64,000 bases of DNA. Origin: an uncultured Planctomycetia bacterium. GTDB lineage: Bacteria > Planctomycetota > Phycisphaerae > FEN-1346 > JAACEH01. The stretch lies in the NCBI GenBank assembly GCA_903929765.1, contig CAIYVX010000055.1, positions 1-64,000 of the forward strand. The letters are read 5' to 3'. Below are positions 10,003-35,309 of the stretch, piece after piece. Within the stretch, counting starts at the first letter, position 1; every line of letters begins with the position of its first letter. The notes below the pieces were generated by a model. It was not told the DNA's origin. It saw only the letters and a program-made list of their open reading frames with translations, and searched no databases. The position numbers and the translations under genes are program-made.

Positions 10003-10686
10003 ATGTCCGATCAGCCGGCGAAAAGACTGGTTCTCGACGGCGTGCGTAAGGCCTATGCGACGGACGCGGGGCCGAACGAAGTGCTGCGCGGCGTGTCGCT
10101 GGAGGTCCGGCCGGGCGAGACGGTGGCCATCGTCGGCGTGTCGGGGTCGGGCAAGAGCACGCTGCTGAACATCATCGGCTCGCTCGACCGGGCGACGGCG
10201 GGGCGGGTGACGCTGGGCGAAATGGACGTGACGGCGCTGGAGGGCGCCGCCCTGGCGGACTATCGCCGGCGGCAGGTCGGCTTCGTGTTTCAGGATCATC
10301 ACCTGTTGCCGCAATGCACGGTGCTGGAGAATGTTTTGCTGCCTACGCTGCCGATGGCGGCAGCAGGGCGGGCGGGGCCGGCGGAGGCGGAGGAGTTGCT
10401 GCGGCGCGTGGGCTTTGCGGGACGCGAGAACGATTTTCCGCAGCACCTCTCAGGCGGGGAGCGGCAGCGCGTGGCTATTGCCCGGGCGCTGGTGAACGGG
10501 CCGCCGCTGGTGCTCTGCGACGAGCCGACGGGGAATCTGGATCGGCGGACCGGCGAGGCGGTGGCGGATTTGTTCGTCGAACTGGCCGGGCAGCGGCAGG
10601 TGATGATGCTGGTGGTGACGCATAACCTCGATTTGGCGGGGCGGTTCTCGCGGCGGCTGGAATTGCGCGACGGTATGCTGGCGTAA
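10003..10686 (+). CDS. ABC transporter ATP-binding protein, LolD/MacB type
   Basis: 227 residues with every core ABC motif: Walker A GVSGSGKST, Q-loop VFQDHHLLPQ, signature LSGGERQR, Walker B LVLCDEPTGNLD and switch His in VVTHNLD. The DEPTGNLD form and the length place it in the LolD/MacB/YbbA group, which powers extraction of lipids or lipoproteins rather than solute pumping. The permease partner follows after 6 bases. No separate LolC/E pair is present. Confidence 0.9.
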   Translation: MSDQPAKRLVLDGVRKAYATDAGPNEVLRGVSLEVRPGETVAIVGVSGSGKSTLLNIIGSLDRATAGRVTLGEMDVTALEGAALADYRRRQVGFVFQDHHLLPQCTVLENVLLPTLPMAAAGRAGPAEAEELLRRVGFAGRENDFPQHLSGGERQRVAIARALVNGPPLVLCDEPTGNLDRRTGEAVADLFVELAGQRQVMMLVVTHNLDLAGRFSRRLELRDGMLA

Positions 10687-13600: not shown

Positions 13601-14247
13601 CCGGTCCGCGAGGCGACGTACACTTGCGGATCGTCGGCCTCCTGCGCGGCAGCATCTGGCAGAGCGAACTTCTGGTGGCCCAGCCGCAACTTGAGCGGCG
13701 TTTCGGGACCAAGGGGTATCGGCGATTCCTGATCGAAGGGCCACAACAAGAGCGGCGAGGGGGTTCTGCGGCGCGGGCGGCGATTCTGCGGTACGAACTG
13801 GGCGACTTCGGCTTTGACTTGCGGACGACGGGCGCGGTGCTGGCCGGGTTTGAGGGCGTGCAGAACGCCTACCTGTCGAGCTTCGAGACGCTGGGCGGGC
13901 TGGGGCTGGCGCTCGGGGCGTTCGGGCTGGTGACGGTGCTGCTGCGGAACGTGGCGGAGCGGCGGAGCGAACTGGCGTTGCTGCTGGCCTTGGGATTTGG
14001 TCGCGGGCAGGTGGTGCGGCTGGTGGTGGCGGAGAACGCGATGTTGACGGCGCTGGGTCTGGGCATCGGTCTGGTGGCGGGTCTGATGGCGGCGGGGCCG
14101 CACCTGGTGCAGGCCGGTGCAGCGGTGGCCTGGGCGCCGCTGGCGGCGAGCCTGGCGGCGGTGCTGGTGATCGGCCTGGGGGCGAGCATGGTGGCGGCGC
14201 GGCAGGCGGTGGGCGATGAACTGATTACGGCTATCCGGGCGGAATAA
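10693..14247 (+). CDS. Large FtsX-family ABC permease
   Basis: 1184 residues, much longer than LolE or MacB. One membrane segment lies near the N terminus (VVLGAAVGVAVITG), a long extracytoplasmic MacB-PCD-like domain follows, then a group of helices around residues 575-760 (typical FtsX segments such as RQVGLLLAVGFTRGAA), a second periplasmic domain, and a final helix group with RRSELALLLALGFGRGQV. This duplicated FtsX layout resembles YbbP. With the ATPase upstream it should act as a mechanotransmission ABC system at the inner membrane, perhaps moving lipoproteins or isoprenoid lipids (inference). Two repeats are translated in frame, family C at residues about 262-276 and family B at about 545-554, both in predicted periplasmic loops. 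Confidence 0.85.
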   Translation: MNFWRLIFRNLVYYRRANVAVVLGAAVGVAVITGSLAVGDSVTGSLRDLAVARLGRTAFALTTGNFFRESLAADLARPDEFPKARPVPAVMLEATASDAESETRVPQVTLFGVDRRFGAITDPADAFGLPFTAAALRPATRAAAVSRSLADDLNLRPGSLLLVTFVRPGLAAPDSLFGRRKRTEVLQTVRLNVARVLPEAGAGQFSLKGDRPRPRNVFVSLEWLQEQIKRSGLANVLFVPGVGDRVDARGSKVGDAEHDKEHTLAPAMPGLQSVAPGLERLNAALARTATIDDYGLRLLVGKEAALESREMVLSPEVVAAAEAAAGQAGLRYSETSIYLANNITRLDGDIRGPTVPYSVVAAGDFASPFAPLVSLSGSMLPALEGDGVVLNQWTADQLGAAVGDTVTMSFYRVAADGSWATFSKLFTVRGIAAMTGAAVDRTLVPQFEGLTDAPKISDWRPPFPIDLTRIRDVDEAYWKEYGPAPKAFISAAAMRDIWAGGQDGRPAETGWVTSVRLAAANGGATTETDLASFTRSLTMILGGGRGRASVGHATLAFIPVRQAALAGAAAATDYGSLLLGLSSFLVLAAALLVALLVRLSVETRARQVGLLLAVGFTRGAAARLLLGETMVLIIVAVAAGVPLGVVYARGILWALATMWTGAVGSFPLTLHVEPASLAIGGAAGFAVAALAAVWAVRVLRRGEVLTLLGGWRALGLSAWRPRARVAGTIAIISLAGAATVLVLAGFGHRVEATTAFFISGSLLLVAGLAWTWVGLRRAARQPAGVALTIPRLARRYAARQPVRSLLTVGLLAAATFIIVTVAANRQGSSEADLARKDSGAGGFALVGDAPLGLPADPGTAAGRRELGFDPADEARLAGVKIYSLPVQAGDDASCLNMQRPLVPRVVGLPELLIGRGGFSFAEFQPLPPGMTNPWELLNQELPGGEVPAIGDEASVRWILHSGLGGTITVPGPRGDVHLRIVGLLRGSIWQSELLVAQPQLERRFGTKGYRRFLIEGPQQERRGGSAARAAILRYELGDFGFDLRTTGAVLAGFEGVQNAYLSSFETLGGLGLALGAFGLVTVLLRNVAERRSELALLLALGFGRGQVVRLVVAENAMLTALGLGIGLVAGLMAAGPHLVQAGAAVAWAPLAASLAAVLVIGLGASMVAARQAVGDELITAIRAE
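11476..11520. repeat. Family C hairpin, copy 2, in frame in the permease gene
   Basis: CACACTTTG / CAAAGTGTG outer arms around CCCCGGC / GCCGGGG inner arms, ending GGCACCC. Translated as EHTLAPAMPGLQSVAPG within the first periplasmic domain of the FtsX permease. Confidence 0.85.
12326..12355. repeat. Family B hairpin, in frame in the permease gene
   Basis: CGTGGCCGCGC and GCGTGGGCCACG arms end in CCACCC. Translated as part of GRGRASVGHATLA shortly before the first FtsX helix group. Confidence 0.8.
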
Positions 14248-14256
14248 AAACGACTC

Positions 14257-15456
14257 ATGAAAGACTATCGCAAACTTATTTCTGTGGCGGTGGTGGTTCT
14301 TCTGATCGCGGTCGGATTCGGCGCGGTGTGGCTGGTGCATTGGTGGCGGCAGCCGCTGCGGCCGGAGAAGATTACCGCGGCGGAGTTGTTCCGGCCGGCG
14401 GGACCGGTGCCGTGGGCGATGTTTCGCGGCAGCTTGGCGGGGACCGGGGAGGCGGCGTCGCCGCTGCCGGCGGAACTGAAGTGGCTCTGGACCTGGGAGG
14501 CCGGCGGCCGCGTTGAATCCACGGCGGCCGTGGTCGGCGACAGTGCGTACCTGGGTACGCGGGACAAACGGCTGGTGGCCCTGGATCTGGCGACCGGAAC
14601 TCAGCGCTGGAGTTATGCGACGCGGGGCGCCGTCTCGGCGTCGCCCTGCGTCGAGGGCGGGCGGGTGTTCGTCGGCGACGAAATGGGCTTTTTTCATGCG
14701 GTGGACGCCGGGAACGGACGGATGATCTGGACGTTCGAGACGGGCGGGCCGATTCATTCGTCCCCGGTTGCCGCCGAAGGGGCGATCCTGTTCGGCGCGG
14801 ACGATTACAAGCTCTATTGTCTCGACGCGGCGACGGGAAAAAAGCGGTGGGAACTGGAGACCGGCAATTTTGTTTACTGTTCGCCGTCGGTGGCGGATGG
14901 GGTGGTGACGATTGCTGGTTGCGACGGGGCGTTACGGGCGGTGGATTTGTTGACCGGCGGTGAATTGTTTCAGGTGGAACAATTGTCGTACACCGGGGCG
15001 ACACCGGCTCGCGTCGGGGGGCGGGCCTTTGTGGCGACGCTGGCGGGGGATGCGTTCTGCATCGACATGAAAAGCAGGGCGATGGTCTGGACGTACCGGC
15101 CGGAGGAGGTCGAGGGGGAGCAGATCGGATACCAGAACTCGGCGGCGGTTTCGCTCGGGCGGGTGATCGTGGCGGGGATCGACGGTTATGTGCGGTCGGT
15201 GGATGCGGCCACGGGGAAGGAGCAATGGCACTTCCGGGCGCGCGGGGGAATGAGATCGTCGCCGGTGATTGTGGGCGAGCGGGTGTTCGTGGGGTCGGAC
15301 GAGGGCACCGTCTACGGCCTGGACCTGGCGAGCGGGGCGGAGGTTTGGAAATACAAGTGCGGGGGGACGATTTCGGCGTCGCCGGCGGTGGGCGAAGGGC
15401 GACTGGTCATCGGCAGCGAGGACGGGGCGGTTTATTGCTTTGGCGGGAAGCGTTGA
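14257..15456 (+). CDS. Membrane-anchored PQQ-type beta-propeller
   Basis: 399 residues. One N-terminal membrane anchor (LISVAVVVLLIAVGFGAVWL) is followed by a propeller with very regular blades: ALDLATGTQRW, AVDAGNGRMIW, CLDAATGKKRW, SVDAATGKEQW, GLDLASGAEVW. The opening WAMFRGSLAGTGE is a divergent form of the usual WPQFRGP. Topology would place the propeller in the periplasm. The gene starts 9 bases after the permease stop, so it is probably in the same operon. BamB is the best-known homologous fold, but no BAM partner is nearby and the specific role is unknown. Confidence 0.8.
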   Translation: MKDYRKLISVAVVVLLIAVGFGAVWLVHWWRQPLRPEKITAAELFRPAGPVPWAMFRGSLAGTGEAASPLPAELKWLWTWEAGGRVESTAAVVGDSAYLGTRDKRLVALDLATGTQRWSYATRGAVSASPCVEGGRVFVGDEMGFFHAVDAGNGRMIWTFETGGPIHSSPVAAEGAILFGADDYKLYCLDAATGKKRWELETGNFVYCSPSVADGVVTIAGCDGALRAVDLLTGGELFQVEQLSYTGATPARVGGRAFVATLAGDAFCIDMKSRAMVWTYRPEEVEGEQIGYQNSAAVSLGRVIVAGIDGYVRSVDAATGKEQWHFRARGGMRSSPVIVGERVFVGSDEGTVYGLDLASGAEVWKYKCGGTISASPAVGEGRLVIGSEDGAVYCFGGKR

Positions 15457-15581: not shown

Positions 15582-17051
15582 TTGAGGATCAACCGGTTAG
15601 CTTTCGTAGTTCCGCTGGTTGCGGCGGTGGTTGGCGTTTGGGCTTTCGTCTCATGGTACGGCGAGGCCCAGAGCGTGACGGCGCGCGTGCGCGAACCCGG
15701 CCAGGACGACCGTGCGCCGGCGGAGCTGAGCGGCTCGGCGGCGCGGCCGGAACGCGGGTTGACCATCGGCTCGGGTGTGCCGGCAAAGCTGGCGGGGTCG
15801 TGGCCGCAGTTTCGCGGTCCGGGCCGCGACGGCGTGGCGGCGGCTGGAGAGCGGGTGGCGCGGACCTGGCCGAGCGGCGGGCCGGAGGTACTCTGGCGGA
15901 CGCCGGTGGGCGAGGGCCATGCGGGACCGGTGATCAGCCGCGGCCGGGTTTACCTGGTGGATTACGATCGCGACCAGAAAGAAGACGCGATTCGGTGCCT
16001 GTCGCTGGCCGACGGCGGGGAAATCTGGCGGTACGGCTACGCGGTGTCAGTTAAGCGCAATCACGGCATGTCGCGGACGGCGCCGGCGGTGGAGGGGAAG
16101 TTCGTGGTGGCCCTGGGGCCGAAGTGCCAGGTGCATTGCCTGAACGCCGAGACGGGCGAACTGATTTGGAAGAAGGATCTGGTCCGGGAGTTCGGGACGA
16201 CCGTGCCGCCGTGGTACGCGGGGCAATGTCCGCTGATCGACCAGGGCCGGGTGATCCTGGCGCCGAGCGGCGGCGAGGCGCTGCTCGTGGCGGTGGATCT
16301 GGCCAGCGGGCAGGTGGTCTGGAAGACGCCGAATCCCGATGGCTGGAAGATGACGCATTCGTCGATCATGGCGGTGGAGGTCGGCGGCGTGCGGCAATAT
16401 GTTTATTGCGGGAGCCGGGGCGTGATTGCGGTGGCGGCCGACGACGGGCGGACGCTCTGGACCTGGCCGGAGTGGAAGATCAGCATTGCGGCGGTGCCGA
16501 CGCCGGTGGTGGTGCCGGGAGATCGGTTGTTTTTCACGGGCGGTTACGAAGCCGGCAGCGAGATGGTGCAATTGGTTCCAGACGGCGGCGAAATCAAGGT
16601 CAAGGAAACGTTTCGCCTCAAGCCGGCGGTTTTTGCCTGTGAGCAGCAGACGCCGATCCTGTACCAGGAGCACATATATGGAGTGGCGTATAACGGGCAA
16701 CTGACCTGCATCGACCTGGCGGGCCAACGGCTCTGGTCGAGCGGGGCGAAGGCGAAGTTCGGGCTGGGACCGCTGGTGATGGCCGACGGGGTGATCTATT
16801 GCCTGGCGGACGAGACGGGCGAACTGGTCATGGCCGAGGCGTCGCCGGCGGGATACCACGAGTTGGGCCGCAAGAATCTGCTCGACGGGCGCGATTCGTG
16901 GGCGCCGATGGCCGTGGCGGACGGACGGTTGATTTTGCGGGAAGGCAACCACGAGATCGAAGGCGGCAAAGACGTGACGGAGATGATTTGCGTGCGAATC
17001 GGGCCGGAGCTTGGCGCGGCGGCGAAGGAAACGGCGGAGGCGGGAAAGTGA
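15582..17051 (+). CDS. Membrane-anchored PQQ-type beta-propeller
   Basis: 489 residues from TTG 15582, which is followed directly by the anchor RLAFVVPLVAAVVGVWAF; GAGGA lies 8-12 bases before. The reading frame is open further upstream, but that part crosses a hairpin repeat and the previous gene and is not protein-like. After the anchor comes SWPQFRGPGRDGVA, then blades such as CLNAETGELIWK, AVDLASGQVVWK and AVAADDGRTLW. A TATAAT hexamer at 15553-15558 might mark a promoter, but no good -35 is seen. The stop overlaps the next start by four bases, beginning the long chain of coupled genes. Start choice is the least certain part. Confidence 0.75.
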   Translation: MRINRLAFVVPLVAAVVGVWAFVSWYGEAQSVTARVREPGQDDRAPAELSGSAARPERGLTIGSGVPAKLAGSWPQFRGPGRDGVAAAGERVARTWPSGGPEVLWRTPVGEGHAGPVISRGRVYLVDYDRDQKEDAIRCLSLADGGEIWRYGYAVSVKRNHGMSRTAPAVEGKFVVALGPKCQVHCLNAETGELIWKKDLVREFGTTVPPWYAGQCPLIDQGRVILAPSGGEALLVAVDLASGQVVWKTPNPDGWKMTHSSIMAVEVGGVRQYVYCGSRGVIAVAADDGRTLWTWPEWKISIAAVPTPVVVPGDRLFFTGGYEAGSEMVQLVPDGGEIKVKETFRLKPAVFACEQQTPILYQEHIYGVAYNGQLTCIDLAGQRLWSSGAKAKFGLGPLVMADGVIYCLADETGELVMAEASPAGYHELGRKNLLDGRDSWAPMAVADGRLILREGNHEIEGGKDVTEMICVRIGPELGAAAKETAEAGK

Positions 17052-17995
17052 ATTTGCGTGCGGCGGGCCTGATTATTCTCTTGGTGGCGGTCGGTGCGGC
17101 CGGTTGTTCCCACGAGCGGCCGGCGCCGGCGGCGCAGGGCAGGTCGGCGGCGAAGGCGCGGACTCCGCTCGGGTACCGGATTGCGCGGATCGTCGAACCG
17201 AAGGTCGAGAAGCTTTGCGGCATCGCGGTGGATGAGCGGGGCGGGATATATCTGGCCGGGCGGCCGGGCGTGGTGATCTTCGACGCGGCCTGGCAGCGTC
17301 AGGGCGAACTGCGGACGCCGCAGCCGGCCGCGGCGGTGGCCCTGGGCGAGGACGGGAAGATTTTCGTTGCCGAACGGCAGAAGATTCACGTGTTTGAGCG
17401 CAACGGGCGCGAGGCGGCGGCGTGGGGCACGCCCGGGGCGGGGAGCGGGCAGTTGAGTTATGTGACGGCGGTGGCGGCGAGCGGGACGGACGTCTGGGTG
17501 GCGGACGCAGGGAATCGCGTGGTGCATCGGTTCGCGGCGACGGGCGATTTTATCGATGATTTCGGCGGCCGCGATCCGGTCACGGGCGCGCCGGGGATCG
17601 TTTGTCCCAGCCCGTTCCTGGGCTGCGCGGTGGCGGCCGATGGGACGCTGTGGGTGGGCAATCCTGGCAAGTGGCGCGTGGAAAATTATGATCTGAACGG
17701 GAAGATGGTCGAGGTCTGGGGTCGCAATGGCTTGTCGGCCGAAACGTTCGCGGGCTGCTGCAATCCGGTGACGCTGGCCGTGACGGCGGAGGGGAACTTC
17801 ATCACGGCCGAGAAGGGCCTGGCGCGGGTGAAACTGCTGGACCGGACGGGTAAGCTTCTGGCGGTAATGCCGGGCGACGAATTTTCGATTCAGAGCAGCG
17901 GGATGACGGTTGCGGCGGACAAGGCGGGACGGATTTACGTGGCCGATCCGGCGAGTGATAAGGTGGTGATTTTTGAATTGGAGCGGAAGCAGTGA
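17048..17995 (+). CDS. NHL-repeat lipoprotein
   Basis: 315 residues from GTG 17048, which overlaps the preceding stop (GTGA). The N terminus is a lipoprotein signal, with Cys about residue 19 after VGAAG and then a Ser/Pro/Ala linker. The body is an NHL-type beta-propeller: GIAVDERGGIYLAG, AVALGEDGKIFVAE, VAASGTDVWVADAGNR, CAVAADGTLWVGN and MTVAADKAGRIYVADP mark the blades. It should be tethered to the outer face of the inner membrane or to the outer membrane. NHL propellers usually mediate protein or ligand contacts. Encoded between a PQQ-type propeller and Tat ferredoxins, it may be the docking part of the redox assembly (inference). Confidence 0.8.
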   Translation: MNLRAAGLIILLVAVGAAGCSHERPAPAAQGRSAAKARTPLGYRIARIVEPKVEKLCGIAVDERGGIYLAGRPGVVIFDAAWQRQGELRTPQPAAAVALGEDGKIFVAERQKIHVFERNGREAAAWGTPGAGSGQLSYVTAVAASGTDVWVADAGNRVVHRFAATGDFIDDFGGRDPVTGAPGIVCPSPFLGCAVAADGTLWVGNPGKWRVENYDLNGKMVEVWGRNGLSAETFAGCCNPVTLAVTAEGNFITAEKGLARVKLLDRTGKLLAVMPGDEFSIQSSGMTVAADKAGRIYVADPASDKVVIFELERKQ

Positions 17996-18294
17996 AAGCG
18001 GCCGGTAATCAATCAATAAATCGCCGTGAGGTTTTCGGTCGCCTCGGGCGCTGGGTCGGGCTGCTGGCGCTGGGGGCGGTGGTGGCGCGGCTGACTTTTG
18101 GGCGGCGCGGCGGCGGAACAAGCGGTGGGGTACGGCGGTCGTTTTCGAGTCGGTGCGGCGAGTGTTCGGCGATCAACGTCTGCCTGTTGCCGGAGGCGGA
18201 GGCGGCGCGGGTTCAGGGGGTCGGTCTGGTCGGAGCGGCGCGCGGTTCGCCGGGGGCGGGACCGGTCCGGCCGCTCTGCCGGGCGGCGGGATGA
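17992..18294 (+). CDS. Small Tat-exported protein with four cysteines
   Basis: 100 residues; GTG 17992 overlaps the preceding stop. The N terminus carries a twin-arginine motif (NRREVFGRLG) and a hydrophobic stretch (VGLLALGAVVA), so export of a folded, cofactor-bearing protein is likely. The mature part has CGECSAINVC and one more Cys near the end, enough to bind a single metal or Fe-S centre, but no standard ferredoxin spacing is complete. I do not recognise the family. Position immediately before a NapG-like Tat ferredoxin, with four-base overlaps on both sides, supports a real gene whose product works with it. Confidence 0.6.
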   Translation: MKAAGNQSINRREVFGRLGRWVGLLALGAVVARLTFGRRGGGTSGGVRRSFSSRCGECSAINVCLLPEAEAARVQGVGLVGAARGSPGAGPVRPLCRAAG

Positions 18295-18902
18295 GAATGG
18301 ATATGGAAACGGATAAGAATCGTCAACCGTTCAATCGCCGGCAGTTTCTCAAGGCGGCGCTGCAAGGCGCGGCGGCCGTGTCGGTCGGCGGGCTGGTGGC
18401 GGCAGCGGCATCGCGGTCGGCCGGCGCGGGGCAGATCTGGCAGATCAACCCGTTCAAGTGCATTCAGTGCGGCAACTGCCGGGTGAACTGCGTGCTGAAG
18501 GAATCGGCGGTGAAGGCGGTACACGATTTTACAATGTGCGGCTATTGCGACCTGTGCACCGGGTTTTTCCATCCGGAGCCGAACGACCTGAATACCGGGG
18601 CCGAGAACCAGCTTTGCCCGTCGGGGGCCCTGGTGCGGAAGTACACGCAGGAGGATCCGTATTTCGAGTACACCATCGACGAGACGATTTGCACCGGCTG
18701 CGGGAAGTGCGTCAAGGGCTGCACGAGTTTCGGCAACGGTTCGCTCTACCTCCAGGTGCGGCACGACCGCTGCAAACATTGCAATGAATGTCTGATTGCG
18801 GCGCGTTGTCCGGCGGGGGCGTTCATTCGGGTTCCGGCCGACAAGCCTTATGTGGTGAAACATTTGGGCGAGGGGGCGATCGTCGGGGAGGAGGCCAGAT
18901 GA
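18291..18902 (+). CDS. Tat-exported polyferredoxin, NapG-like
   Basis: 203 residues from ATG 18291, inside the preceding stop (ATGA). A Tat signal (NRRQFLKAAL then a hydrophobic run) precedes four [4Fe-4S] sites: CIQCGNCRVNC, CGYCDLC with a later Cys, CTGCGKCVKGC and CKHCNECLIAARCP. This matches the NapG/DmsB type of periplasmic electron-transfer subunit. In nitrate reductase systems NapG works with membrane-bound NapH to pass electrons from quinol to a periplasmic enzyme; here the next gene is NapH-like, but no terminal reductase is encoded in the window. Adjoining beta-propeller genes are the only periplasmic partners visible. Confidence 0.85.
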   Translation: MRMDMETDKNRQPFNRRQFLKAALQGAAAVSVGGLVAAAASRSAGAGQIWQINPFKCIQCGNCRVNCVLKESAVKAVHDFTMCGYCDLCTGFFHPEPNDLNTGAENQLCPSGALVRKYTQEDPYFEYTIDETICTGCGKCVKGCTSFGNGSLYLQVRHDRCKHCNECLIAARCPAGAFIRVPADKPYVVKHLGEGAIVGEEAR

Positions 18903-19762
18903 AGTTCGCGGGCCGCCTCCGATTCTTTGCGACGATGGTTCTTGCCGCCGCGGCGATTGCGGTCGCGGCCGGGGCGGCGCTGGGTGTGGAGCGGTTTCCG
19001 CCGCCGGACTTCGATACGCACAAATTGCCGGCGATGGTGCAGCCGTTGCCGCCGGGCGACGTGCGGGATTATGTCCACGTCGGACTGCTGGCAGCGGGGC
19101 TGATTATCGCGACGTGGCTGGTCTTGGTGCGGCGGTCGCGGCGCGGCGTGGCGATTCTGTCGGTGGCGTCACTGGCCTATTTCGGTTTCTATATTGGAGG
19201 CTGTATCTGTCCCATCGGATCGATTCAGAACGTGGCGGCGGGCCTGGCGGATTCGAGTTATGTGCTGCCGTGGACGGTGATCGCGGTGTTCGCGCTGCCG
19301 GTGGTGTTTGCGCTGCTGGTGGGGCGGGTGTTTTGCAGCAGTGTTTGTCCGCTGGGGGCGATTCAGGATTTGGTGCTGCTGCGGCAGGTGCGCGTGCCGA
19401 CCTGGCTGCAATATCCGCTGGGGCTGCTGCCGTATGTTTATCTCGGGGCGGGAATTTTATTTGCGACGCTCGGCGGGCAGTTCATCATTTGTGAATACGA
19501 TCCATTTGTCTCGTTTTTCCGGCAGGGCGGGCGACCGGGGATTATTTATTTCGGGGCGGGGCTGCTCCTGCTGGGGATGTTCGTCGGGCGGCCATATTGC
19601 CGGTTTCTTTGTCCATACGGAGCCTTGCTGGGCCTATGTTCCCGCGTGGCCCGGTGGCGGGTGAGCGTGACGCCGGACGAGTGCGTCAACTGCCGGCTGT
19701 GCGAGAGTGCCTGTCCTTACGGCTCGATCCGGCCTTCGACCGAGGAAGGGGAGCCGGCGTGA
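18899..19762 (+). CDS. Polytopic membrane ferredoxin, NapH/CcoG/NosR-like
   Basis: 287 residues; ATG 18899 overlaps the previous stop. About five to six hydrophobic helices carry the CxxxCP motifs typical of NapH, CcoG and NosR (CSSVCPLGAI, CRFLCPYGAL, and a related CICPIGSI), and a C-terminal [4Fe-4S] site (CVNCRLCESACP). In NapH these features couple quinol oxidation to electron transfer across the membrane. A short N-terminal signal-like helix and a periplasmic loop (ERFPPPDFDTHKLP) precede the first CxxxCP region. It is the natural membrane partner of the Tat ferredoxin upstream. The direction of electron flow cannot be read from the sequence. Confidence 0.85.
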   Translation: MKFAGRLRFFATMVLAAAAIAVAAGAALGVERFPPPDFDTHKLPAMVQPLPPGDVRDYVHVGLLAAGLIIATWLVLVRRSRRGVAILSVASLAYFGFYIGGCICPIGSIQNVAAGLADSSYVLPWTVIAVFALPVVFALLVGRVFCSSVCPLGAIQDLVLLRQVRVPTWLQYPLGLLPYVYLGAGILFATLGGQFIICEYDPFVSFFRQGGRPGIIYFGAGLLLLGMFVGRPYCRFLCPYGALLGLCSRVARWRVSVTPDECVNCRLCESACPYGSIRPSTEEGEPA

Positions 19763-20193
19763 AAATTCTGCGACGGCTGATCATCCTCCTATTGCCGGCG
19801 GTGCTGGCGGCGCTCGGATATTTCGCCGGGCCGGCCATGTCGCGGATGAACGCGACGGTGGCCCTGGCCGACCAGGTTCTAACGGACACAGGTTCCGGTG
19901 ATGAGGAGCGGTCGAACGAACTCCAGGCTTTTTACGCGAAGAGCCAATCGCCGGACGACCTGGTAGCCGAGGCCCGGCGAATCGAAGAACGGTTTCGCGT
20001 CGGCGCGGCGATCTTCGGATTCTGGTGCGGGCTGGTGGCGGCGCTGCAGGTTGCGGCGGCGGGACGGGTGCGGCGGCGGAGGGTTTACGAAATTGATCAC
20101 GGGACGTGCGTGGCGTGCGGGCGGTGCTTTATGAGTTGTCCGAAGGAGCGGTCGAGATTGAAGAATCTCGATCTGGCGCGCGGGGCGAAATGA
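19759..20193 (+). CDS. Small membrane protein with one ferredoxin site
   Basis: 144 residues; GTG 19759 overlaps the previous stop. An N-terminal membrane helix (LIILLLPAVLAALGYFAG), a polar stretch that may be periplasmic, and a second helix (AAIFGFWCGLVAALQVA) lead to a basic turn and a C-terminal CVACGRCFMSCPKE. With two helices the cluster would face the cytoplasm, a suitable entry point between the soluble NADH module and the membrane ferredoxin (inference from topology). Only one [4Fe-4S] site is present and the protein ends 15-20 residues after it, so it is shorter than two-cluster ferredoxins. No named family recognised. Confidence 0.7.
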   Translation: MKILRRLIILLLPAVLAALGYFAGPAMSRMNATVALADQVLTDTGSGDEERSNELQAFYAKSQSPDDLVAEARRIEERFRVGAAIFGFWCGLVAALQVAAAGRVRRRRVYEIDHGTCVACGRCFMSCPKERSRLKNLDLARGAK

Positions 20194-22019
20194 CGGATCA
20201 AGCGGGCACAACTTCTTCTGCTCCTGAACAAGGCCGTGCGGCGACCTGGCGGTTTGCGGCGCTGTCGCTGGCGGTGGTGGCGGCGGTCTTTTCGACGGCG
20301 GTCGGCGGGGTGATGGTCTGGGTGCACGTCAACGACGCGGACAATGTCTGGACGAATGCAGCGCCGATGGCGAGGCTGGAAAGCCAACTCGCCGAGCGGC
20401 CGGTCGATGCGGCGCTGAAGGAGAAGATTCGGCAGCAGGATCAGGAGTCGCGTGCGGAGTTTTTCCGGCGGCAGAAGGAACTCCAGATGGGCGGATGGCT
20501 GCTGCTGGCGGGGCTGGCGATTTTCCTGGCGGCGGCCAAGTGCTATGCGGCGCTGCGACCGAAGACGGTCGAAGTGCCGACGTGCGCGGCACCGACGCGA
20601 GCCGAGTGGTTGCAGCGGGCCAGGCGTGAGGCGTGGGCCGTGACGGCGGGCGGGGCGGCGCTGGCGGTCGGTCTGGGCGGTGTGGTGATTTTGGGGCATG
20701 AGCGTCTGCCGGGTGTGCCACAAGTGGCGGTTTTGGAGGAAGTGGCGGCGCTGCCCGTGGCGGAGACGTGGCCGATGTTCCGGGGGCCGACGGCCAGGGG
20801 AATTGTGACGCCGGGCGATTGGCCGCAGAGCTGGGACACGAAGACGGGCGAGAACGTACTCTGGAAATGCGCGATTCCGGGCGAGGGGAACAGTTCGCCG
20901 GTGGTCTGGGGCGAACGGGTTTTTATGACCAGCGCGGACGCGGAGCATCGCTGGCTGCACTGCGTTGATGCCAGCGCGGGGAAGGTGTTGTGGTCGAGCG
21001 AGGAGAAGTCGCCGCCGGGGGCGCCGGGGCCGGACCAGGTCAAGCCGCCGCTCGATGACACGGGCTATGCGGCTCCGACGGCGGCAACCGACGGGACCCG
21101 CGTCTACGTCACTTACGCCAACGCGGACGTGGCGGCCTTCGACTTCGCGGGCAAACAACTTTGGGTTATCAACCTGGGCGTGCCGCAGAGCAGTTACGGT
21201 CTGGCCTCGTCGCCGATCATTTATAAGAATTTGTTGATTCTTCAGCATGACCAGGGCGGCGAGGCCGAGGACCGGCTGTCGTCGATCGTGGCCCTGGACG
21301 TCCGGACCGGGCGGATCGTCTGGCAAACGCCGCGCCCGGTGCCGGGGTCGTGGAGTTCTCCGATACTGATGCGGCCCGATCAGGCGAATGAACGGCTGGA
21401 ACTGGTTGCCTGCGGCACGCCGTGGGTCATGGCCTATGATCCCGCGTCGGGCCGGGAATTGTGGCGGGCCAAGTGCTTCAGCGGCGACGTGGCCCCGAGT
21501 CCGGTGGCGGCGGGCGGCGTGGTCGTGGCCGGTGTGGCGGATTTGTCGGATGGCAGCAAATCGAGGCTTCTGGCGATTCGCGCCGGCGGCGCGGGCGACG
21601 TGACCGCGACTAACATTCTCTGGTCCACCGATGATAACGTTCCAAAGATCGCCAGCCCGGTGGCTGATGGGGAGCGCGGCCTGGCGGTAGGCGGTGATAG
21701 TCACGGCGTGGCCTGTTACAACACGCATACCGGCAAGGTTTTGTGGGCGCACGATTTCGAGAACGCCGCCTACACGCCGTCGCCCGTTTTGGCCGACGAC
21801 ATGGTGTACCTGCCGGTGGAGGACGGGCGGACGTTCGTCTTCCGCCTGGTCGACAAATTTGAGTTGCTGCACATCTGCAAGATCGAGGAGCAGATCGTAA
21901 CCTCTCCGGCCTTCGCCGGAGGACGGATTTATATTCGCGGGAAGAATAGTTTGTATTGTATCGGGCGGCGCAGCGGGAGCGCGGCTACGGCTTCGCCGGC
22001 GACGGAGGGGAAAAAATGA
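20190..22019 (+). CDS. Multi-helix membrane protein with PQQ-type propeller
   Basis: 609 residues; ATG 20190 overlaps the previous stop. Three N-terminal membrane helices (about residues 20-45, 98-115 and 150-168) are unusual for this propeller type. A charged coil (ALKEKIRQQDQESRAEFFRRQ) lies between the first two. The propeller begins at WPMFRGPTARG and continues with blades such as CVDASAGKVLW, ALDVRTGRIVW and YNTHTGKVLW; it ends about 15 residues before the stop. The three-helix anchor and its position between ferredoxin and NADH-module genes suggest an integral part of the membrane complex rather than a free chaperone. Actual PQQ or haem binding is not evident. Confidence 0.8.
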   Translation: MTDQAGTTSSAPEQGRAATWRFAALSLAVVAAVFSTAVGGVMVWVHVNDADNVWTNAAPMARLESQLAERPVDAALKEKIRQQDQESRAEFFRRQKELQMGGWLLLAGLAIFLAAAKCYAALRPKTVEVPTCAAPTRAEWLQRARREAWAVTAGGAALAVGLGGVVILGHERLPGVPQVAVLEEVAALPVAETWPMFRGPTARGIVTPGDWPQSWDTKTGENVLWKCAIPGEGNSSPVVWGERVFMTSADAEHRWLHCVDASAGKVLWSSEEKSPPGAPGPDQVKPPLDDTGYAAPTAATDGTRVYVTYANADVAAFDFAGKQLWVINLGVPQSSYGLASSPIIYKNLLILQHDQGGEAEDRLSSIVALDVRTGRIVWQTPRPVPGSWSSPILMRPDQANERLELVACGTPWVMAYDPASGRELWRAKCFSGDVAPSPVAAGGVVVAGVADLSDGSKSRLLAIRAGGAGDVTATNILWSTDDNVPKIASPVADGERGLAVGGDSHGVACYNTHTGKVLWAHDFENAAYTPSPVLADDMVYLPVEDGRTFVFRLVDKFELLHICKIEEQIVTSPAFAGGRIYIRGKNSLYCIGRRSGSAATASPATEGKK

Positions 22020-24403
22020 GCCGGACCGTCTCAACCTCGCCGGCGACCATCGACCTGACTGCGGTTGAGCGGATGGTCCGCGCCGCCGGGACGGGCCGGG
22101 ACGCCGTGATCCCGATTCTCCAGGCGATTCAGGCTGAGTACCGCTACCTGCCCGAGGCGGCGCTGCGGCGCGTCTGCGAACTGACGGAGATTACGCCGGC
22201 CCAGATCAGCGGCGTGGCGACGTTCTACAACCAGTTCCGCCACGCGCCGGTGGGCGAACACATCATCCGCGTCTGCCACGGCACGGCCTGCCATGTGGCG
22301 GGGGTGCCGCTGGTGACGGACGCTTTGCGCCGGCACCTGGGACTGAAGACGGAAGCTGAGGACACGGACCGGGAGGGCCGGTTTACGGTCGAAAAGGTGC
22401 CGTGTCTGGGCTGCTGCACGCTGGCCCCGGTGCTACAGATTGACGACGTGACTTATGGCCATCTGACGCCACAATCGGTGCCGGAGGTGCTGGAAGATTT
22501 TCTACGCCGGACAAAAGCCACGGCATCCCTGGGCAATGCTGTGGGCTTTAAAGGCCCGGAGTTGGGGGAGATCCGCATCGGCCTGGGTTCGTGTTGCCAG
22601 GCCCAGGGGAGCGCGAGTGTCCGCGAGGCGATCAGTGCGACGCTGGCCGAGTCGGGGGCGGCGGTGGTGGTGAAGCGCGTGGGCTGCGTGGGCATGTGCC
22701 ATCAGACGCCGCTGGTTGAAGTCCGCCCGGCGGGTGGCGAGCCGCAGATGTTCGCCAAGGTCAAGGCGGCGGACGCGCGGGAGATCGTGCTGTCGCAATT
22801 CCGGCCGCGCGGGATCGTGCGGCGGATCGGCTATGAAGTTCGGAGTTTCATTGAGAGTTTTACGGGCGAGGAGTCCGGGCGGGAACGGGCGGCGAGCCTG
22901 GCGATTAATGCCCGCGAAGATCCGGTCTGTGCGTTCCTGGGTCCGCAGCAGCACGTGGCGACGGAGTACGGCGGACAGATTGATCCGACGAATCTGGATG
23001 AATATCTGCGGCACGACGGGTTCAAGGCCCTGGAGCGCTGCCTGGGGGAATGGGATGAGGAAAAAATCATCGCGGAGATGCACACGGCGGGACTGCGTGG
23101 CCGGGGCGGGGCGGGATTCCCGACGGGCGTGAAGTGGGCCACGGTGCGGGTGGCGGCGGGTGAGCGGAAGTTCGCCATCTGCAACGGCGACGAGGGCGAC
23201 CCCGGGGCGTTTATGGACCGGATGATTCTGGAGTCGTTCCCGTATCGCGTGATCGAGGGGTTGGCGATTGCGGCCCGGGCGGTCGGTGCGCACGAGGCGG
23301 TGTTCTACATTCGCGAGGAGTACCCGCTGGCGACGGAGCGGATCGCCGAGGCGATAGCGAAATGTGAGGAGCGCGGGATTCTGGGGCCGCACATCTTAGG
23401 GCATGACTTTTCGCTCCGCGTGACGCTGAAAAAGGGGGCCGGGGCGTTTGTCTGCGGCGAGGAGACGGCCCTGGTGGCTTCGGTGGAAGGCCGGCGTGGG
23501 ATGCCGCGGCTGCGCCCGCCGTACCCGGCCGAGCTGGGGCTGTGGGGGCAGCCGACGCTCGTGAATAATGTCGAGACGTATGCCTGCGTGCCGTGGATCA
23601 TCCGTCACGGCGGGGCGGCGTTTGCGGCCATGGGGACGCCGACGAGTCGGGGGACGAAAGTTTTCGCCCTGGCCGGCCGAGTGAAGCGCGGCGGGTTGAT
23701 CGAAGTGCCGATGGGCGTGACGCTGCGGCGCATCGTCGAGGAGATCGGTGGCGGGACCAAGAGCGGGCGGCCGTTCAAGGCGGTGCAGGTCGGCGGGCCG
23801 TCGGGCGGGTGCATTCCGGCGTCGCTGGCGGACACGCCGGTGGACTACGAGGAGCTGGCCCGGGCCGGATCGATCATGGGGTCGGGCGGGCTGGTGGTGC
23901 TGGACGAGGGCGACTGCATGGTGGACATCGCCCGGTATTTTTTGAGTTTCACGCAGGACCAGTCGTGCGGGAAGTGTACGTTTTGCCGGATCGGGACGAA
24001 ACGGATGCTGGAGATTCTGGAGCGGCTGTGCGCGGGGCAGGGGCGGGCGGCGGACCTGGCGGCCCTGGAGAATCTGGCGGACCGGGTGCGGCGGACGAGC
24101 CTGTGCGGACTGGGTCGGACGGCGCCGAATCCGGTGCTTTCGACGCTGCGCCATTTTCGGGCGGAGTATGAGGCGCACCTGGCGGGGCGCTGTCCGGCGA
24201 AGCGGTGCCCGGCGCTGATTAGATATCGAATTAACGATAAGTGCATCGGATGCACACGCTGCGCCCAGCGCTGCCCGGTGGAGGCCATCGCCCCGCGGCC
24301 CTACGAGCAGCACGAGGTGGACGCGGCCAAGTGCGTGCGGTGCGGGACGTGCAAGGCGGTTTGTCCGGTGGACGCGGTGGAGGTGGAGACGGGCCATGGT
24401 TAA
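22016..24403 (+). CDS. NuoE-NuoF fusion, NADH-oxidising flavin/Fe-S subunit
   Basis: 795 residues; ATG 22016 overlaps the previous stop. Domains in order: a NuoE-like thioredoxin-fold [2Fe-2S] domain (CHGTAC and CLGCC), a second short thioredoxin-like [2Fe-2S] domain (GSCCQ and CVGMC), a NuoF core with FMN/NADH motifs RGRGGAGFPTG, GDEGDPGAFMD and GAGAFVCGEE, the [4Fe-4S] site CGKCTFC plus the Cys of LCGLG, and a C-terminal two-cluster ferredoxin (CIGCTRCAQRCP, CVRCGTCKAVCP). This layout is that of HydB, formate dehydrogenase beta and Stn/Bfu-type electron-bifurcating flavoproteins. It should be a soluble cytoplasmic NADH-reacting unit. Partner genes on both sides suggest delivery to, or supply from, the membrane ferredoxins. 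Confidence 0.88.
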   Translation: MSRTVSTSPATIDLTAVERMVRAAGTGRDAVIPILQAIQAEYRYLPEAALRRVCELTEITPAQISGVATFYNQFRHAPVGEHIIRVCHGTACHVAGVPLVTDALRRHLGLKTEAEDTDREGRFTVEKVPCLGCCTLAPVLQIDDVTYGHLTPQSVPEVLEDFLRRTKATASLGNAVGFKGPELGEIRIGLGSCCQAQGSASVREAISATLAESGAAVVVKRVGCVGMCHQTPLVEVRPAGGEPQMFAKVKAADAREIVLSQFRPRGIVRRIGYEVRSFIESFTGEESGRERAASLAINAREDPVCAFLGPQQHVATEYGGQIDPTNLDEYLRHDGFKALERCLGEWDEEKIIAEMHTAGLRGRGGAGFPTGVKWATVRVAAGERKFAICNGDEGDPGAFMDRMILESFPYRVIEGLAIAARAVGAHEAVFYIREEYPLATERIAEAIAKCEERGILGPHILGHDFSLRVTLKKGAGAFVCGEETALVASVEGRRGMPRLRPPYPAELGLWGQPTLVNNVETYACVPWIIRHGGAAFAAMGTPTSRGTKVFALAGRVKRGGLIEVPMGVTLRRIVEEIGGGTKSGRPFKAVQVGGPSGGCIPASLADTPVDYEELARAGSIMGSGGLVVLDEGDCMVDIARYFLSFTQDQSCGKCTFCRIGTKRMLEILERLCAGQGRAADLAALENLADRVRRTSLCGLGRTAPNPVLSTLRHFRAEYEAHLAGRCPAKRCPALIRYRINDKCIGCTRCAQRCPVEAIAPRPYEQHEVDAAKCVRCGTCKAVCPVDAVEVETGHG

Positions 24404-26021
24404 GCTGACCATCGACAATCGGCCGGTGGAAGCGGCGGCGGGGACGACCATCCTAGCGGCGGCGGCCCAGGTCGGCATCCGGATTCCGACGCTCTGCCAT
24501 CTGGCGGCCCGGGAGCCGGAGACGTCGTGCTACGTCTGCGTCGTGCAGATCGAGGGGCGGCGCGAGTTAAGCCCGGCCTGTGCGACGCGGGTGACGGCCG
24601 GCATGGTGGTCGAGACGCAGACGGAGGACGTGCGGCGGGCGCGGCAAACGGCGCTGGAGTTGCTGCTTTCGGATCATGCGGGCGATTGCGTAGGACCGTG
24701 TACGCTGGGTTGTCCGGCGCATCTGGAAATTGCGGATTTTATCGCGGCCCTGCGCGGCGGCGACGGGCGGAGTGCGGCAGGGCTGGTGGTGCGCGGGTTG
24801 GCTCTGCCGGCGACGCTGGGTCACATCTGTCCTGGTTTTTGCGAAGGCGCCTGCCGGCGGAAAGCCCTCGACGAGGCGGTGGCGATTCGGGAGTTGCATC
24901 GCTATGTGGCGGAGACGGACCTGGAGTTGACGGCGCCGTACGATCCTCCCTGCGCGGCGGCGACAGGCAGGCGGGCCGCGGTGGTGGGGGCGGGGCCGGC
25001 GGGGTTGGCGGCGGCGCTGCATCTGCGGCAACTTGGCCACGAGTGTACGGTTTTCGAGGCGCAGAAGGAGTTGGGCGGGGCGCTGCGGACGGGCTTGCCG
25101 GAGTGGCGATTGCCGCGAAAAATTCTCGACGGCGAGATCGAGCGGCTGCGGCGGCTGGGCGTGAAGTTTCAGACCGGCGAGAAGCTGGGCGAAAATCTTT
25201 CGCTGGATCGGCTGCGGGCGGAATATGGAGCGGTGCTGCTGGCGCTGGGGACGCAGAAGGCGGGCGGGCCGGCTGATCCGCGGGCGGAGCATGTGGCGGG
25301 GTCGGGTGCGGCGCTGGATTTGGCGCTGGTGAAATCCCTGGGCCTTGAAACCGGGCCGCGCGGGGTCAAGGTTGAGCGCGAGGCGATGGCGACGAATCTA
25401 CCGGGAGTTTTTGCGGCGGGGAATCTGGTGAGCGGCGCGCAGTATGCGGTTCATGCCGTTGCGGGCGGACGGCGGGCGGCGGTGGCGATGGACGCGCACT
25501 TGCGTGGTCAGGCGTTGGGCCATCGGCCGCACGAAGTTCACTCGCTCCTGGGGCATCTTAAGGAAAGCGAAGTGGCGCGGCTGCGGGCGTTTGCCGATCC
25601 GGCGCAGCGGGAAGCGGCGGAAGATCTGACGGCGGCGCAGGCGGCGGTCGAGGCGCGGAGGTGTCTTGATTGCGATTGCCGCAAGCGTGATAATTGCTGT
25701 CTGCGGAAGTTAGGTGAGGAATACGGGGCCGCGGCGGCGCGATATCGCGGCGAGCGGCGCGAGTTCGAGCGCGACGCGACGCATCCGGAGGTGATTTACG
25801 AGGCGGGCAAGTGCATTCAGTGCGGCATCTGTCTGCGTCTGGCCGAGGAGGTGCGCGAGCCGCTGGGCTTGACGTTCATCGGTCGCGGATTCCGGGTTCG
25901 AGTGGCCGGGCCATTTGCGGCACATTTAGCCGATGCGCTGCACGAGGCGGCGCGGCGTGCGGCGGAGTCTTGTCCGACGGGGGCGCTGGCTTTGCGGCGC
26001 GGCGCACGGGATGGAACATAA
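24396..26021 (+). CDS. [2Fe-2S]-GltD-like FAD protein lacking second Rossmann motif
   Basis: 541 residues, overlapping the preceding gene by 8 bases. Residues 1-80 form a plant-type [2Fe-2S] domain (Cys34, 45, 48, 62). A GltD-type helical Fe-S segment follows (CVGPCTLGCP, CPGFCEGACRR), then one FAD-binding motif VVGAGPAGLAAAL and the closing GVFAAGNLVSGA strand, where the usual Asp is Asn. C-terminal cysteines (CLDCDC, CIQCGIC, CPTGAL) give further clusters. StnC/NfnB/GltD homologues have a second GxGxxG domain for NAD(P)H; here the chain passes straight from the first domain to the closing strand, so NAD(P)H binding is probably lost. The protein may be an FAD relay for the NADH module rather than a transhydrogenase (inference). 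Confidence 0.8.
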   Translation: MVKLTIDNRPVEAAAGTTILAAAAQVGIRIPTLCHLAAREPETSCYVCVVQIEGRRELSPACATRVTAGMVVETQTEDVRRARQTALELLLSDHAGDCVGPCTLGCPAHLEIADFIAALRGGDGRSAAGLVVRGLALPATLGHICPGFCEGACRRKALDEAVAIRELHRYVAETDLELTAPYDPPCAAATGRRAAVVGAGPAGLAAALHLRQLGHECTVFEAQKELGGALRTGLPEWRLPRKILDGEIERLRRLGVKFQTGEKLGENLSLDRLRAEYGAVLLALGTQKAGGPADPRAEHVAGSGAALDLALVKSLGLETGPRGVKVEREAMATNLPGVFAAGNLVSGAQYAVHAVAGGRRAAVAMDAHLRGQALGHRPHEVHSLLGHLKESEVARLRAFADPAQREAAEDLTAAQAAVEARRCLDCDCRKRDNCCLRKLGEEYGAAAARYRGERREFERDATHPEVIYEAGKCIQCGICLRLAEEVREPLGLTFIGRGFRVRVAGPFAAHLADALHEAARRAAESCPTGALALRRGARDGT

Positions 26022-26030
26022 AGGGCGGCG

Positions 26031-27335
26031 ATGAAAATCATTTACCTGGCGGCGGGGGCGGGCGGGTTCTATTGCGGGGCTTGTGCCCGCGACGTGGCGC
26101 TGGCTCGCGGGTTGATCCGTCGGGGCCATGATTGCCTGATGCTGCCGCTCTACACGCCGTTGGAGACGGACGGCCCGGACCCGAGCGCGGGGCGGGTTTT
26201 CTACGGCGGCCTGGCGGCCTATCTCGAACAGAAATCAGGATTTTTTCGCCGGCGCTGGCCGCTGGTGGACCGGCTGCTCGATCAGCCGTGGCTGCTGCGG
26301 GCCGTGGCCCGGCGGGCGATCGACACTCGGCCGGAGGATCTCGGGGAGATGACCGTTTCGGTGCTGCGCGGGGCCGAGGGGCGGCAGGCGAAGGAACTCC
26401 AGCGGTTGCTGGAATTCCTCGACAGCCAGGGCCGGCCGGACGTGGTGAACCTGAGCAACGCGATGTTGTCAGCGGTGGCGGGGCCGATCAAGGAACGGTT
26501 CAAAGTTCCGGTGGTCTCGACGCTCCAGGGCGAGGAGGATTTCGTCAATCGGCTGCCCGAGCCGCATCGCGCGGAAGCCTGGCGGCTGCTGCGGCGCCAC
26601 GCCGAGAAGATTGACCTGTTCATCGCTCCGAGCGAATCTTATGCCGACGAGGCGGCGGTGATGCTGGGTGTGCCGCGCGCGCGGCTGCGGGCGGTTCGGC
26701 CGGGGGTTGATACGGCGGTCTATCGCCCGGCGGCGGAGGGGTCGGGTTCGACAGGCTCACCGCGGCCGGGGCGGCGGATCGGTTGCGTGTCACGGTGTTC
26801 GCCGAACAAGGGGACAGATTTGCTGTGCGAGGCGTTTGCGGCGCTCGAGGCGCGGCAACCGGGCCGGACGACGCTGGCTCTGGCGGGGCAGGTGGGGACG
26901 GCGGACCGGGCGTGGTACGAAGCGTTGCGGGATGGTCTGGCCCGGCGCGGATTGGCCGAGCGGGTGGAGTTTTGCGGCGAGTTGGAACTGGCGGAAAAAG
27001 TTGCGTTCCTTCAGGGCCTCGACGTGTTCGCGCAGCCGAGCCGATTTGCGGAGCGGCGCGGGATGGCGGCGCTGGAGGCGCTGGCCTGTGGCGTGCCGAT
27101 TGTCGTGCCGCGTTCGGGGATTTTTCCGGAAATGGTTGAACTGACCGGCGGCGGGGTGGTGGTCGAACCGGAGAACGCGGTGGCGCTGGCCGAGGCGTTG
27201 GGGCGGGTTTTGGACGATCCGGCCGAGAGGGAGCGGATGTCCAGGGCGGCGCGGGCGGGGGTTGAGAAATACTTTTCGGCAGATATTATGACCGAGGCGA
27301 CGGTGGCGGTTTATCGCGAAATAGTTCTGTCGTAG
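26031..27335 (+). CDS. GT4-type glycosyltransferase
   Basis: 434 residues with a GT-B fold. The N-terminal domain begins MKIIYLAAGAGGFYCG; the C-terminal domain has CVSRCSPNKGTDLL, the R/K-region, and the sugar-nucleotide motif EALACGVPIVVPRSG preceded by FAERRGMAALEAL (ExxxxxxxE). It should transfer a sugar from a nucleotide donor to a lipid, glycan or protein acceptor at the cytoplasmic membrane face. It starts 9 bases after the FAD protein gene and may be the last member of that operon. A short SGSTGSPRPG linker encoded around 26750-26770 resembles a translated repeat remnant between the domains. Confidence 0.85.
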   Translation: MKIIYLAAGAGGFYCGACARDVALARGLIRRGHDCLMLPLYTPLETDGPDPSAGRVFYGGLAAYLEQKSGFFRRRWPLVDRLLDQPWLLRAVARRAIDTRPEDLGEMTVSVLRGAEGRQAKELQRLLEFLDSQGRPDVVNLSNAMLSAVAGPIKERFKVPVVSTLQGEEDFVNRLPEPHRAEAWRLLRRHAEKIDLFIAPSESYADEAAVMLGVPRARLRAVRPGVDTAVYRPAAEGSGSTGSPRPGRRIGCVSRCSPNKGTDLLCEAFAALEARQPGRTTLALAGQVGTADRAWYEALRDGLARRGLAERVEFCGELELAEKVAFLQGLDVFAQPSRFAERRGMAALEALACGVPIVVPRSGIFPEMVELTGGGVVVEPENAVALAEALGRVLDDPAERERMSRAARAGVEKYFSADIMTEATVAVYREIVLS

Positions 27336-29217: not shown

Positions 29218-29294
<77 letters not shown>

Positions 29295-35224: not shown

Positions 35225-35309
35225 GGGCGGATTCCCGAGCGGTCAAAGGGGACAGACTGTAAATCTGTTGGCTCAGCCTTCGGAGGTTCGAATCCTTCTC
35301 CGCCCACCA
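35225..35309 (+). tRNA. tRNA-Tyr (anticodon GTA)
   Basis: Class II tRNA. Acceptor GGGCGGA pairs with TCCGCCC; anticodon stem ACAGA/TCTGT with loop CTGTAAA gives GTA; a long variable arm (GGCTCAGCC) and T arm GGAGG-TTCGAAT-CCTTC follow. CCA encoded at 35307-35309. Confidence 0.95.

Follow-up and report, generated by a model that had tools for sequence, protein, structure and literature searches.

What does a run of nine tightly packed genes do that sets NADH-side flavoprotein domains beside NapGH-like iron-sulfur proteins and predicted periplasmic propellers? The genes, here called A to I, lie on one strand at 15582-26021 of a 64,000-nucleotide stretch of DNA (the window) from an uncultured Planctomycetia bacterium. 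The window belongs to contig 55 (CAIYVX010000055.1) of an assembly of 3.83 Mb (GCA_903929765.1). A reading made from the letters alone (the sequence-only reading) had proposed an undescribed complex in which a NapH/NapG-like module connects NADH with the periplasm. Our analysis upholds this link, finds the gene set again in relatives and suggests a family for it: A to I probably encode one inner-membrane complex of the Bfu (HydABC/StnABC) family, whose third substrate would be reached via a haem-free, NapGH-like transmembrane module. The gene set, its synteny, the ligand residues, the domain losses and the fusions are seen in the sequence itself; a single physical complex, its wiring, its use of ferredoxin, its direction and a periplasmic substrate are inferred. 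No account of the gene set was found in the literature searched, whose coverage did not extend to most subscription journals and bioRxiv.

The gene set is a conserved system. E was matched at an expectation value below 1e-30 in 36 of 101 related genomes, and the order A-B-(C)-D-E/F-G-H-I is kept in nearly all 20-kb neighbourhoods of these E-bearing relatives. The synteny check that the sequence-only reading had asked for thus came out in its favour, with the order A-B-D-E-G-H-I kept in nearly every sufficiently long locus. Where the contig was long enough, presence amounts to 83/87 for A, 95/99 for B, 103/103 for E, 79/84 for G, 71/77 for H and 62/68 for I; the loci were picked by similarity to D or E, and these fractions hold for close members. 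In total about 110 distinct loci keep this gene order; they come from Planctomycetota, Verrucomicrobia, Bacteroidota, Aminicenantes, KSB1 and other groups.

A search of named genomes with an alignment of D returned at least 459 related stretches, the best 80 of which are labelled as Planctomycetota, Verrucomicrobia, Lentisphaerae, Kiritimatiellae, Bacteroidota, Aminicenantes, Omnitrophota, KSB1, Firestonebacteria and Sumerlaeota, including the isolates Gaoshiqia sediminis A06 and Perlabentimonas gracilis M08_MB, and the gene order is also kept in named-genome loci from those phyla. Several taxon names of metagenome-assembled genomes are doubtful: L124 (Actinomycetes) shares gene content with the planctomycete contig G029:C227 and is probably misnamed. 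In an even draw across the phylum, D is present in 37 of 392 species. Weak NapH paralogues within the clade (L072, L074 and L075) have none of the other core genes nearby.

The predicted cytoplasmic subunits H and I

The sequence-only reading had described H as a NuoE-NuoF fusion. These domains are present (PF01512, PF10589 and PF01257 above cut-off, including the NuoF domain that binds NADH and flavin mononucleotide, FMN), and to them are added a B2 site, an N-terminal [2Fe-2S] domain and two C-terminal [4Fe-4S] clusters, which makes H more than NuoEF. In an alignment of 56 H proteins the C1 ligands Cys 87/92/130/134 are conserved throughout (56/56), the B1 ligands C651/654/657/697 and those of B3 and B4 in 55-56 of 56, and the ligands of both C-terminal clusters in 55 of 56. 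The B2 ligands C634, C672, H721, C726 and C731 are found in 55/56, with position 672 being Cys in 46/56. Their spacing of 38, 49, 5 and 5 residues compares with 38, 49, 6 and 5 in NiFe-Bfu (C438/C476/H525/C531/C536). Further conserved cysteines are C194 and C224 (both 56/56), C193 (46/56) and C228 (43/56), in a stretch over which solved relatives align with low score. Among solved structures, H matches 9bov_B, 8oh5_B and 9n5u_B best.

According to Schut et al. (PMC9304861), the Bfu family is defined by a BfuBC core of six Fe-S clusters plus FMN; the B2 histidine is conserved in all but 8 of 1558 BfuB proteins and absent from non-bifurcating HydB homologues. The complex I type NuoF of the same genome (L005), taken as a control, lacks the B2 His/Cys stretch, while another Bfu paralogue (L001) has the B2 site. 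Judged by its ligand residues, H is a full Bfu electron-bifurcation core; the plain NuoEF reading is ruled out by the ligands of B2 and of the C-terminal clusters. Because H reads as a full Bfu core, ferredoxin is predicted to be its second cytoplasmic partner. The genome (G000) holds five NuoF homologues, with matches on contigs 108, 97 and 22 (L001-L003). The one on contig 97 sits in an open frame of 1113 residues that also contains a GltD-like stretch, beside a HydA/NuoG-like frame.

For I the earlier description as a [2Fe-2S] protein with a flavin adenine dinucleotide (FAD) domain is correct as to its domains and incomplete as to its kind, which is BfuA/StnC-like and apparently reduced to a wire. 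I aligns with the A/C subunits of solved Bfu structures (best matches 9bov_A, 9n5u_A and 8oh5_C) over residues 1-302 and 316-531, whereby about 140 residues of the solved proteins are skipped. By the GltD fold this missing segment corresponds to the NAD(P)-binding domain. The gap is general across 67 I proteins; the domain is kept in three of them (L067, L071 and L104), and six have lost the FAD domain altogether. Fe-S ligands are retained at both ends. Most likely I conducts electrons and binds no nucleotide in most members; since the NAD(P) domain and in some lineages the whole FAD domain are lost while the Fe-S ligands stay, it is probably a wire. This fits the view that the FAD of the StnC-type subunit in StnABC is not the bifurcating flavin (PMC10482914). 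An NADPH transhydrogenase was considered and is ruled out by the missing NAD(P) domain.

The predicted membrane arm and periplasmic propellers

Simple hydropathy gives E five hydrophobic segments. The protein further has two CxxxCP motifs, C102, C104 and C198 as additional conserved cysteines, and a cytoplasmic cluster at 262-272; cysteines 102, 104, 146, 150, 198, 234 and 238 occupy membrane or loop positions. A sequence search of the PDB found no structure of a NapH-like membrane protein. F is laid out as transmembrane helix, periplasmic helices, transmembrane helix and a cytoplasmic CxxCxxCxxxCP motif. The E protein of most relatives measures about 430-450 residues, the last of which correspond to what is encoded here as F. 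By this comparison E and F are one protein with F as its detached C-terminus, so F does not hold as the separate one-cluster membrane ferredoxin for which it had been taken. Likewise, with E and F fused in most relatives, the nine genes correspond to eight proteins there.

D carries a twin-arginine motif, and its 16 conserved cysteines could bind four [4Fe-4S] clusters. Between B and D, a gene with the strict pattern of C (small, twin-arginine translocation (Tat) type, four spaced cysteines) is found in 69 of 100 loci.

Fusions also connect other neighbours. In the nearest relative (L036) F is joined to G instead of E, and L060 has A fused to B. In L067 and L071, E is fused to the NuoE/BfuC domain that elsewhere forms the N-terminus of H, and the membrane and NADH halves are therefore tied together. 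Taken together, the fusions E-F, F-G, E-NADH module and A-B provide the best sequence evidence for a single complex. L067 and L071 constitute family f10, in which F and G are missing and I retains its NAD(P) domain; this subtype is possibly an ancestral or NADP-linked form.

The fusions bear on the suggestion that a Bfu enzyme and a periplasmic propeller/NapGH set are two unrelated gene sets which merely lie side by side. It could draw on the foreign insertions inside the cluster in some loci (L136, L149), but the E-NuoE fusion in two genomes and an order conserved across many phyla leave it very improbable, and it was already disfavoured. The insertions in L136, L149 and L097 resemble unrelated genes. 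Gaoshiqia sediminis (L136, 16171-19778) has two genes resembling an McrBC-like restriction pair between H and I, and in a KSB1 locus (L149, 12430-18972) E and G are separated by a TonB-receptor-like gene, and G and H by a phosphorylase-like one.

On the periplasmic side, A, B, G and the accessory propellers A0 and pq2 all bear an N-terminal anchor or lipobox. A has the invariant residues D127-Y128, H161-G-x-x-R165-T166, Q215-C216-P217, M257-x-H259, C376 and C470. Its AlphaFold model (mean predicted local distance difference test, pLDDT, 88.8) shows a BamB-like propeller with a helix at 5-30, and the nearest Foldseek matches are BamB and tetrathionate hydrolase. B is modelled at a pLDDT of 89.2 and matches NHL domains in Foldseek; its invariant motifs F-x-G-C237-C238-N-P and E255-K256-x-x-x-R260-x-K262 suggest a working site. 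The propeller folds named in the sequence-only reading are thus borne out and the PQQ (pyrroloquinoline quinone) type given there for A and G is not: the folds are BamB-like or NHL, and none of the propellers matched a PQQ-enzyme subfamily model above its curated cut-off, all scores being far below. PqqC had no match in the 101 genomes, where the control set gave no match either. A terminal reductase encoded nearby was sought by clustering all neighbouring open reading frames, and no recurrent enzyme emerged other than the propellers, a glycosyltransferase (GT) and an ABC-FtsX pair. A c-type cytochrome route is ruled out, as the haem motif CxxCH is not conserved in any subunit.

Whether quinones take part was judged indirectly, from the hosts. 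Presence of the system is associated with absence of COX1, which occurs in 12 of the 36 system-bearing genomes and in 48 of the 65 relatives without the system (Fisher p about 1e-4, not corrected for relatedness). In thirteen of the 36, both PF02621 (futalosine route) and a MenB above cut-off are missing. Of the thirteen, twelve also lack COX1, all twelve have an NqrB/RnfD homologue, and ten of the twelve are listed as 95-99% complete. That the complex is kept where no known menaquinone pathway was found argues against a quinone-dependent reductase. The NapGH-type quinol link assumed at first is consequently unlikely, because 12 of 36 system-bearing genomes have neither menaquinone pathway.

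The same counts weigh on the proposal of an NADH (plus ferredoxin):menaquinone oxidoreductase, in which E would have a quinone site of the kind assumed for NapH, and periplasmic enzymes would receive quinol electrons from D and the propellers. E is homologous to NapH, PMC9304861 predicts Nuo-Bfu to be menaquinone-linked with Planctomycetes included, and the own genome has PF02621 proteins. Against this, the twelve genomes (ten of them 95-99% complete) have neither menaquinone pathway and E scores far below the NapH cut-offs, so that we consider this proposal rather improbable.

The proposed complex, its direction and its surroundings

In the proposed complex, H would form an FMN-containing, six-cluster bifurcation core in the cytoplasm that exchanges electrons with NAD(H) and, by homology, with ferredoxin. 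I would connect H and the cytoplasmic clusters of E/F by an Fe-S chain that conducts mid-potential electrons. Electrons would cross the membrane on the Fe-S clusters of E, now regarded as one unit with F, and would be passed by D with its four [4Fe-4S] clusters, together with C, to a periplasmic assembly of the anchored propellers A, B and G, where the substrate would be converted. The path suggested earlier (NADH, FMN, small ferredoxin, NapH-like, NapG-like, propellers) survives in part: it leaves out I and the membrane cysteines of E, and treats F as separate. Tentatively, we see a new type of bifurcating or confurcating enzyme with its third substrate outside the cytoplasmic membrane. It would export or import electrons without haem and independently of quinones, would have a multi-propeller catalyst in the periplasm, and would be widespread among anaerobic polysaccharide degraders in many phyla.

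The direction is presumed to be reductive: NADH and reduced ferredoxin would jointly supply a periplasmic acceptor by confurcation, which would serve anaerobes as an electron sink. This preference is weak and is based on the hosts being mostly anaerobes without terminal oxidases. A serious rival, though an unlikely one, is the same complex run backwards: a periplasmic substrate would be oxidised at the propellers, and electrons entering via D and E would be bifurcated to NAD+ and ferredoxin. Bfu enzymes can run in either direction, and several oxidise their third substrate (PMC9304861), propeller enzymes are often dehydrogenases, and A and B carry invariant, pocket-like residues. On the other hand, no known dehydrogenase cofactor site was recognised, A ranks nearer to BamB and tetrathionate hydrolase than to PQQ dehydrogenases, and the periplasmic donor would need a potential low enough for ferredoxin reduction.

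Several observations count against the proposed confurcating complex. No catalytic cofactor was recognised on the periplasmic side. The own genome has a futalosine-type menaquinone gene set and one COX1 homologue. C is absent from about one third of the loci, and lineage f10 (L067, L071) does without F and G, its I still having the NAD(P) domain. With scores far below those required by the NapH models, E is credited with transmembrane electron transfer by analogy. The proteins are known here as genes and bifurcation is deduced from ligands. Finally, the conserved GT and ABC-FtsX genes are left unaccounted for.

These neighbours would find a place in a maturation or repair system, in which low-potential electrons delivered to the periplasm would serve to mature a cofactor or thiol of exported proteins or to keep it reduced, with the GT and ABC-FtsX genes in the same export route. 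Such roles have been proposed for NapH relatives of the MauM/MauN or CcoG type, E is in the same Pfam family as NapH/MauN, the GT, ABC and FtsX genes are conserved neighbours, and the vicinal Cys237-Cys238 of B is invariant. We regard this explanation as improbable, since no dedicated client protein is conserved in the neighbourhoods and a full bifurcation core would be heavy equipment for such a role.

The genes recurring around the core are those for an ABC ATPase, an FtsX/MacB permease, A0 and a GT4 glycosyltransferase, together with one to three further propeller genes (pq2). They precede the core in planctomycetes and lie partly behind it in Bacteroidota and Aminicenantes; ATPase, permease and glycosyltransferase accompany the cluster in several phyla despite permuted gene order. 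The extent 15582-26021 given for the cluster is therefore too narrow, as A0, FtsX, ABC, pq2 and GT also belong to it by conserved neighbourhood (Table 1). Pfam and NCBIfam domain calls for A to I match the list of the sequence-only reading, and the coordinates bear out its overlaps of 4 bases (seven junctions) or 8 bases (one junction). The 4-base overlaps are not kept as a feature, gaps being seen between these genes in relatives. The least certain start is that of A (TTG), with which the helix predicted at 5-30 in its AlphaFold model is consistent.

Table 1. Predicted features of the cluster and its conserved neighbours (positions in the window)
Feature	Position	Strand	Basis
pq2: accessory PQQ_2/BamB-like propeller	7575..8882	+	Pfam PF13360; recurrent neighbour across phyla
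ABC transporter ATPase, conserved neighbour	10003..10686	+	PF00005; beside core in many loci
FtsX/MacB-like permease, conserved neighbour	10693..14247	+	PF02687, PF12704
A0: membrane-anchored BamB-like propeller	14257..15456	+	PF13570/PF13360; hydrophobic segment 7-25; conserved neighbour
A: anchored BamB-like propeller with invariant residues	15582..17051	+	Pfam, alignment, AlphaFold, Foldseek
B: NHL propeller lipoprotein	17048..17995	+	Pfam, alignment, AlphaFold, Foldseek
C: small Tat-type protein, four-cysteine motif, possible Fe-S cluster	17992..18294	+	pattern between B and D
D: NapG-like Tat polyferredoxin, four [4Fe-4S]	18291..18902	+	Pfam/NCBIfam, alignment
E: NapH-like membrane Fe-S protein	18899..19762	+	Pfam/NCBIfam, alignment, hydropathy
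F: split-off C-terminal part of E	19759..20193	+	comparison with relatives
G: membrane-anchored periplasmic propeller, about three transmembrane helices	20190..22019	+	Pfam, alignment, hydropathy
H: BfuC-BfuB fusion	22016..24403	+	Pfam, ligand alignment, Bfu criteria of PMC9304861
I: BfuA/StnC-like Fe-S protein, FAD domain, without NAD(P)-binding domain	24396..26021	+	Pfam, alignment
GT: GT4-type glycosyltransferase, conserved neighbour	26031..27335	+	PF00534

Elsewhere in the window, a polyprenyl synthetase domain is fused to DUF116 (4025-5755), and relatives of it are found close to the core in L051/L150 and in the Lentisphaerae locus L137. Upstream of the cluster, 1602-3950 and 9024-9977 encode squalene-hopene-cyclase-like and prenyl alpha-alpha toroid proteins, and L137 has a similar pair. 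Two tRNA genes lie at 29218-29291 and 35225-35306. No other Rfam family was found within the window, and therefore no known riboswitch upstream of the cluster.

Comparison with known systems

A, A0, G and pq2 have the propeller fold in common with PQQ dehydrogenases, BamB and tetrathionate hydrolase, while differing from the first in the PQQ-enzyme models, none of which matched above curated cut-off. The proton-pumping membrane subunits that go with the NuoEFG module of complex I are not among the cluster genes. With the Rnf complex the system shares an NADH/ferredoxin side with a NuoF-like flavoprotein and an Fe-S route through the membrane, but the cluster contains no Rnf membrane subunit and NqrB/RnfD (NQR2, PF03116) has no match anywhere in the own genome.

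NapGH, the quinol dehydrogenase of periplasmic nitrate reductase, likewise places a Tat polyferredoxin with four [4Fe-4S] clusters beside a CxxxCP membrane protein with a cytoplasmic ferredoxin tail. The similarity is distant: D reaches 26.3 bits with the NapG model against a cut-off of 269, and E reaches 54.7 against 234 with NapH and 52.9 against 213 with TIGR02163. In contrast to NapGH, the present system has extra CxC and C-x2-D-P-F cysteines, an NADH-side module and no nitrate reductase, and it is kept in genomes without known menaquinone genes.

Closest is the Bfu family, especially StnABC/Nfn-Bfu and the bifurcating formate dehydrogenase (9n5u, 8oh5, 9bov). H has the complete BfuBC ligand set and its alignment with BfuB of these enzymes spans the whole length, and I shares their [2Fe-2S], GltD-type Fe-S and FAD parts. 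Here, however, BfuC is fused to BfuB and BfuA has no NAD(P)-binding domain; and where the formate dehydrogenase has its catalytic unit, the cluster has neither this nor another such unit, and instead a NapGH-like transmembrane arm with periplasmic propellers.

Schut et al. (PMC9304861) name only Mbh-Bfu and Nuo-Bfu as membrane-bound, both by prediction, and leave 17 BfuB clades without function; NapH-like or PQQ propeller partners are not mentioned in the sections covered. A study of BfuABC in Hydrogenedentota (PMC11406978) does not mention PQQ, NapH, propellers or the periplasm. H may be one of the 17 unassigned clades, for which the system may then supply a function. The gene set occurs in many uncultured lineages and in at least two cultured organisms (Gaoshiqia sediminis, Perlabentimonas gracilis), which makes its function approachable by growth and proteomics in the latter. 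If the proposal is true, fermenting anaerobes without recognisable quinone genes would have a route to exchange electrons across the inner membrane. Like Nuo-Bfu and Mbh-Bfu (PMC9304861), the complex would set a Bfu core on membrane subunits; those two use subunits of complex I or of an energy-converting hydrogenase, whereas the cluster here has neither. It would thus be a third kind of membrane-linked Bfu enzyme, the first one without a complex I or hydrogenase membrane part and the first with a periplasmic third substrate.

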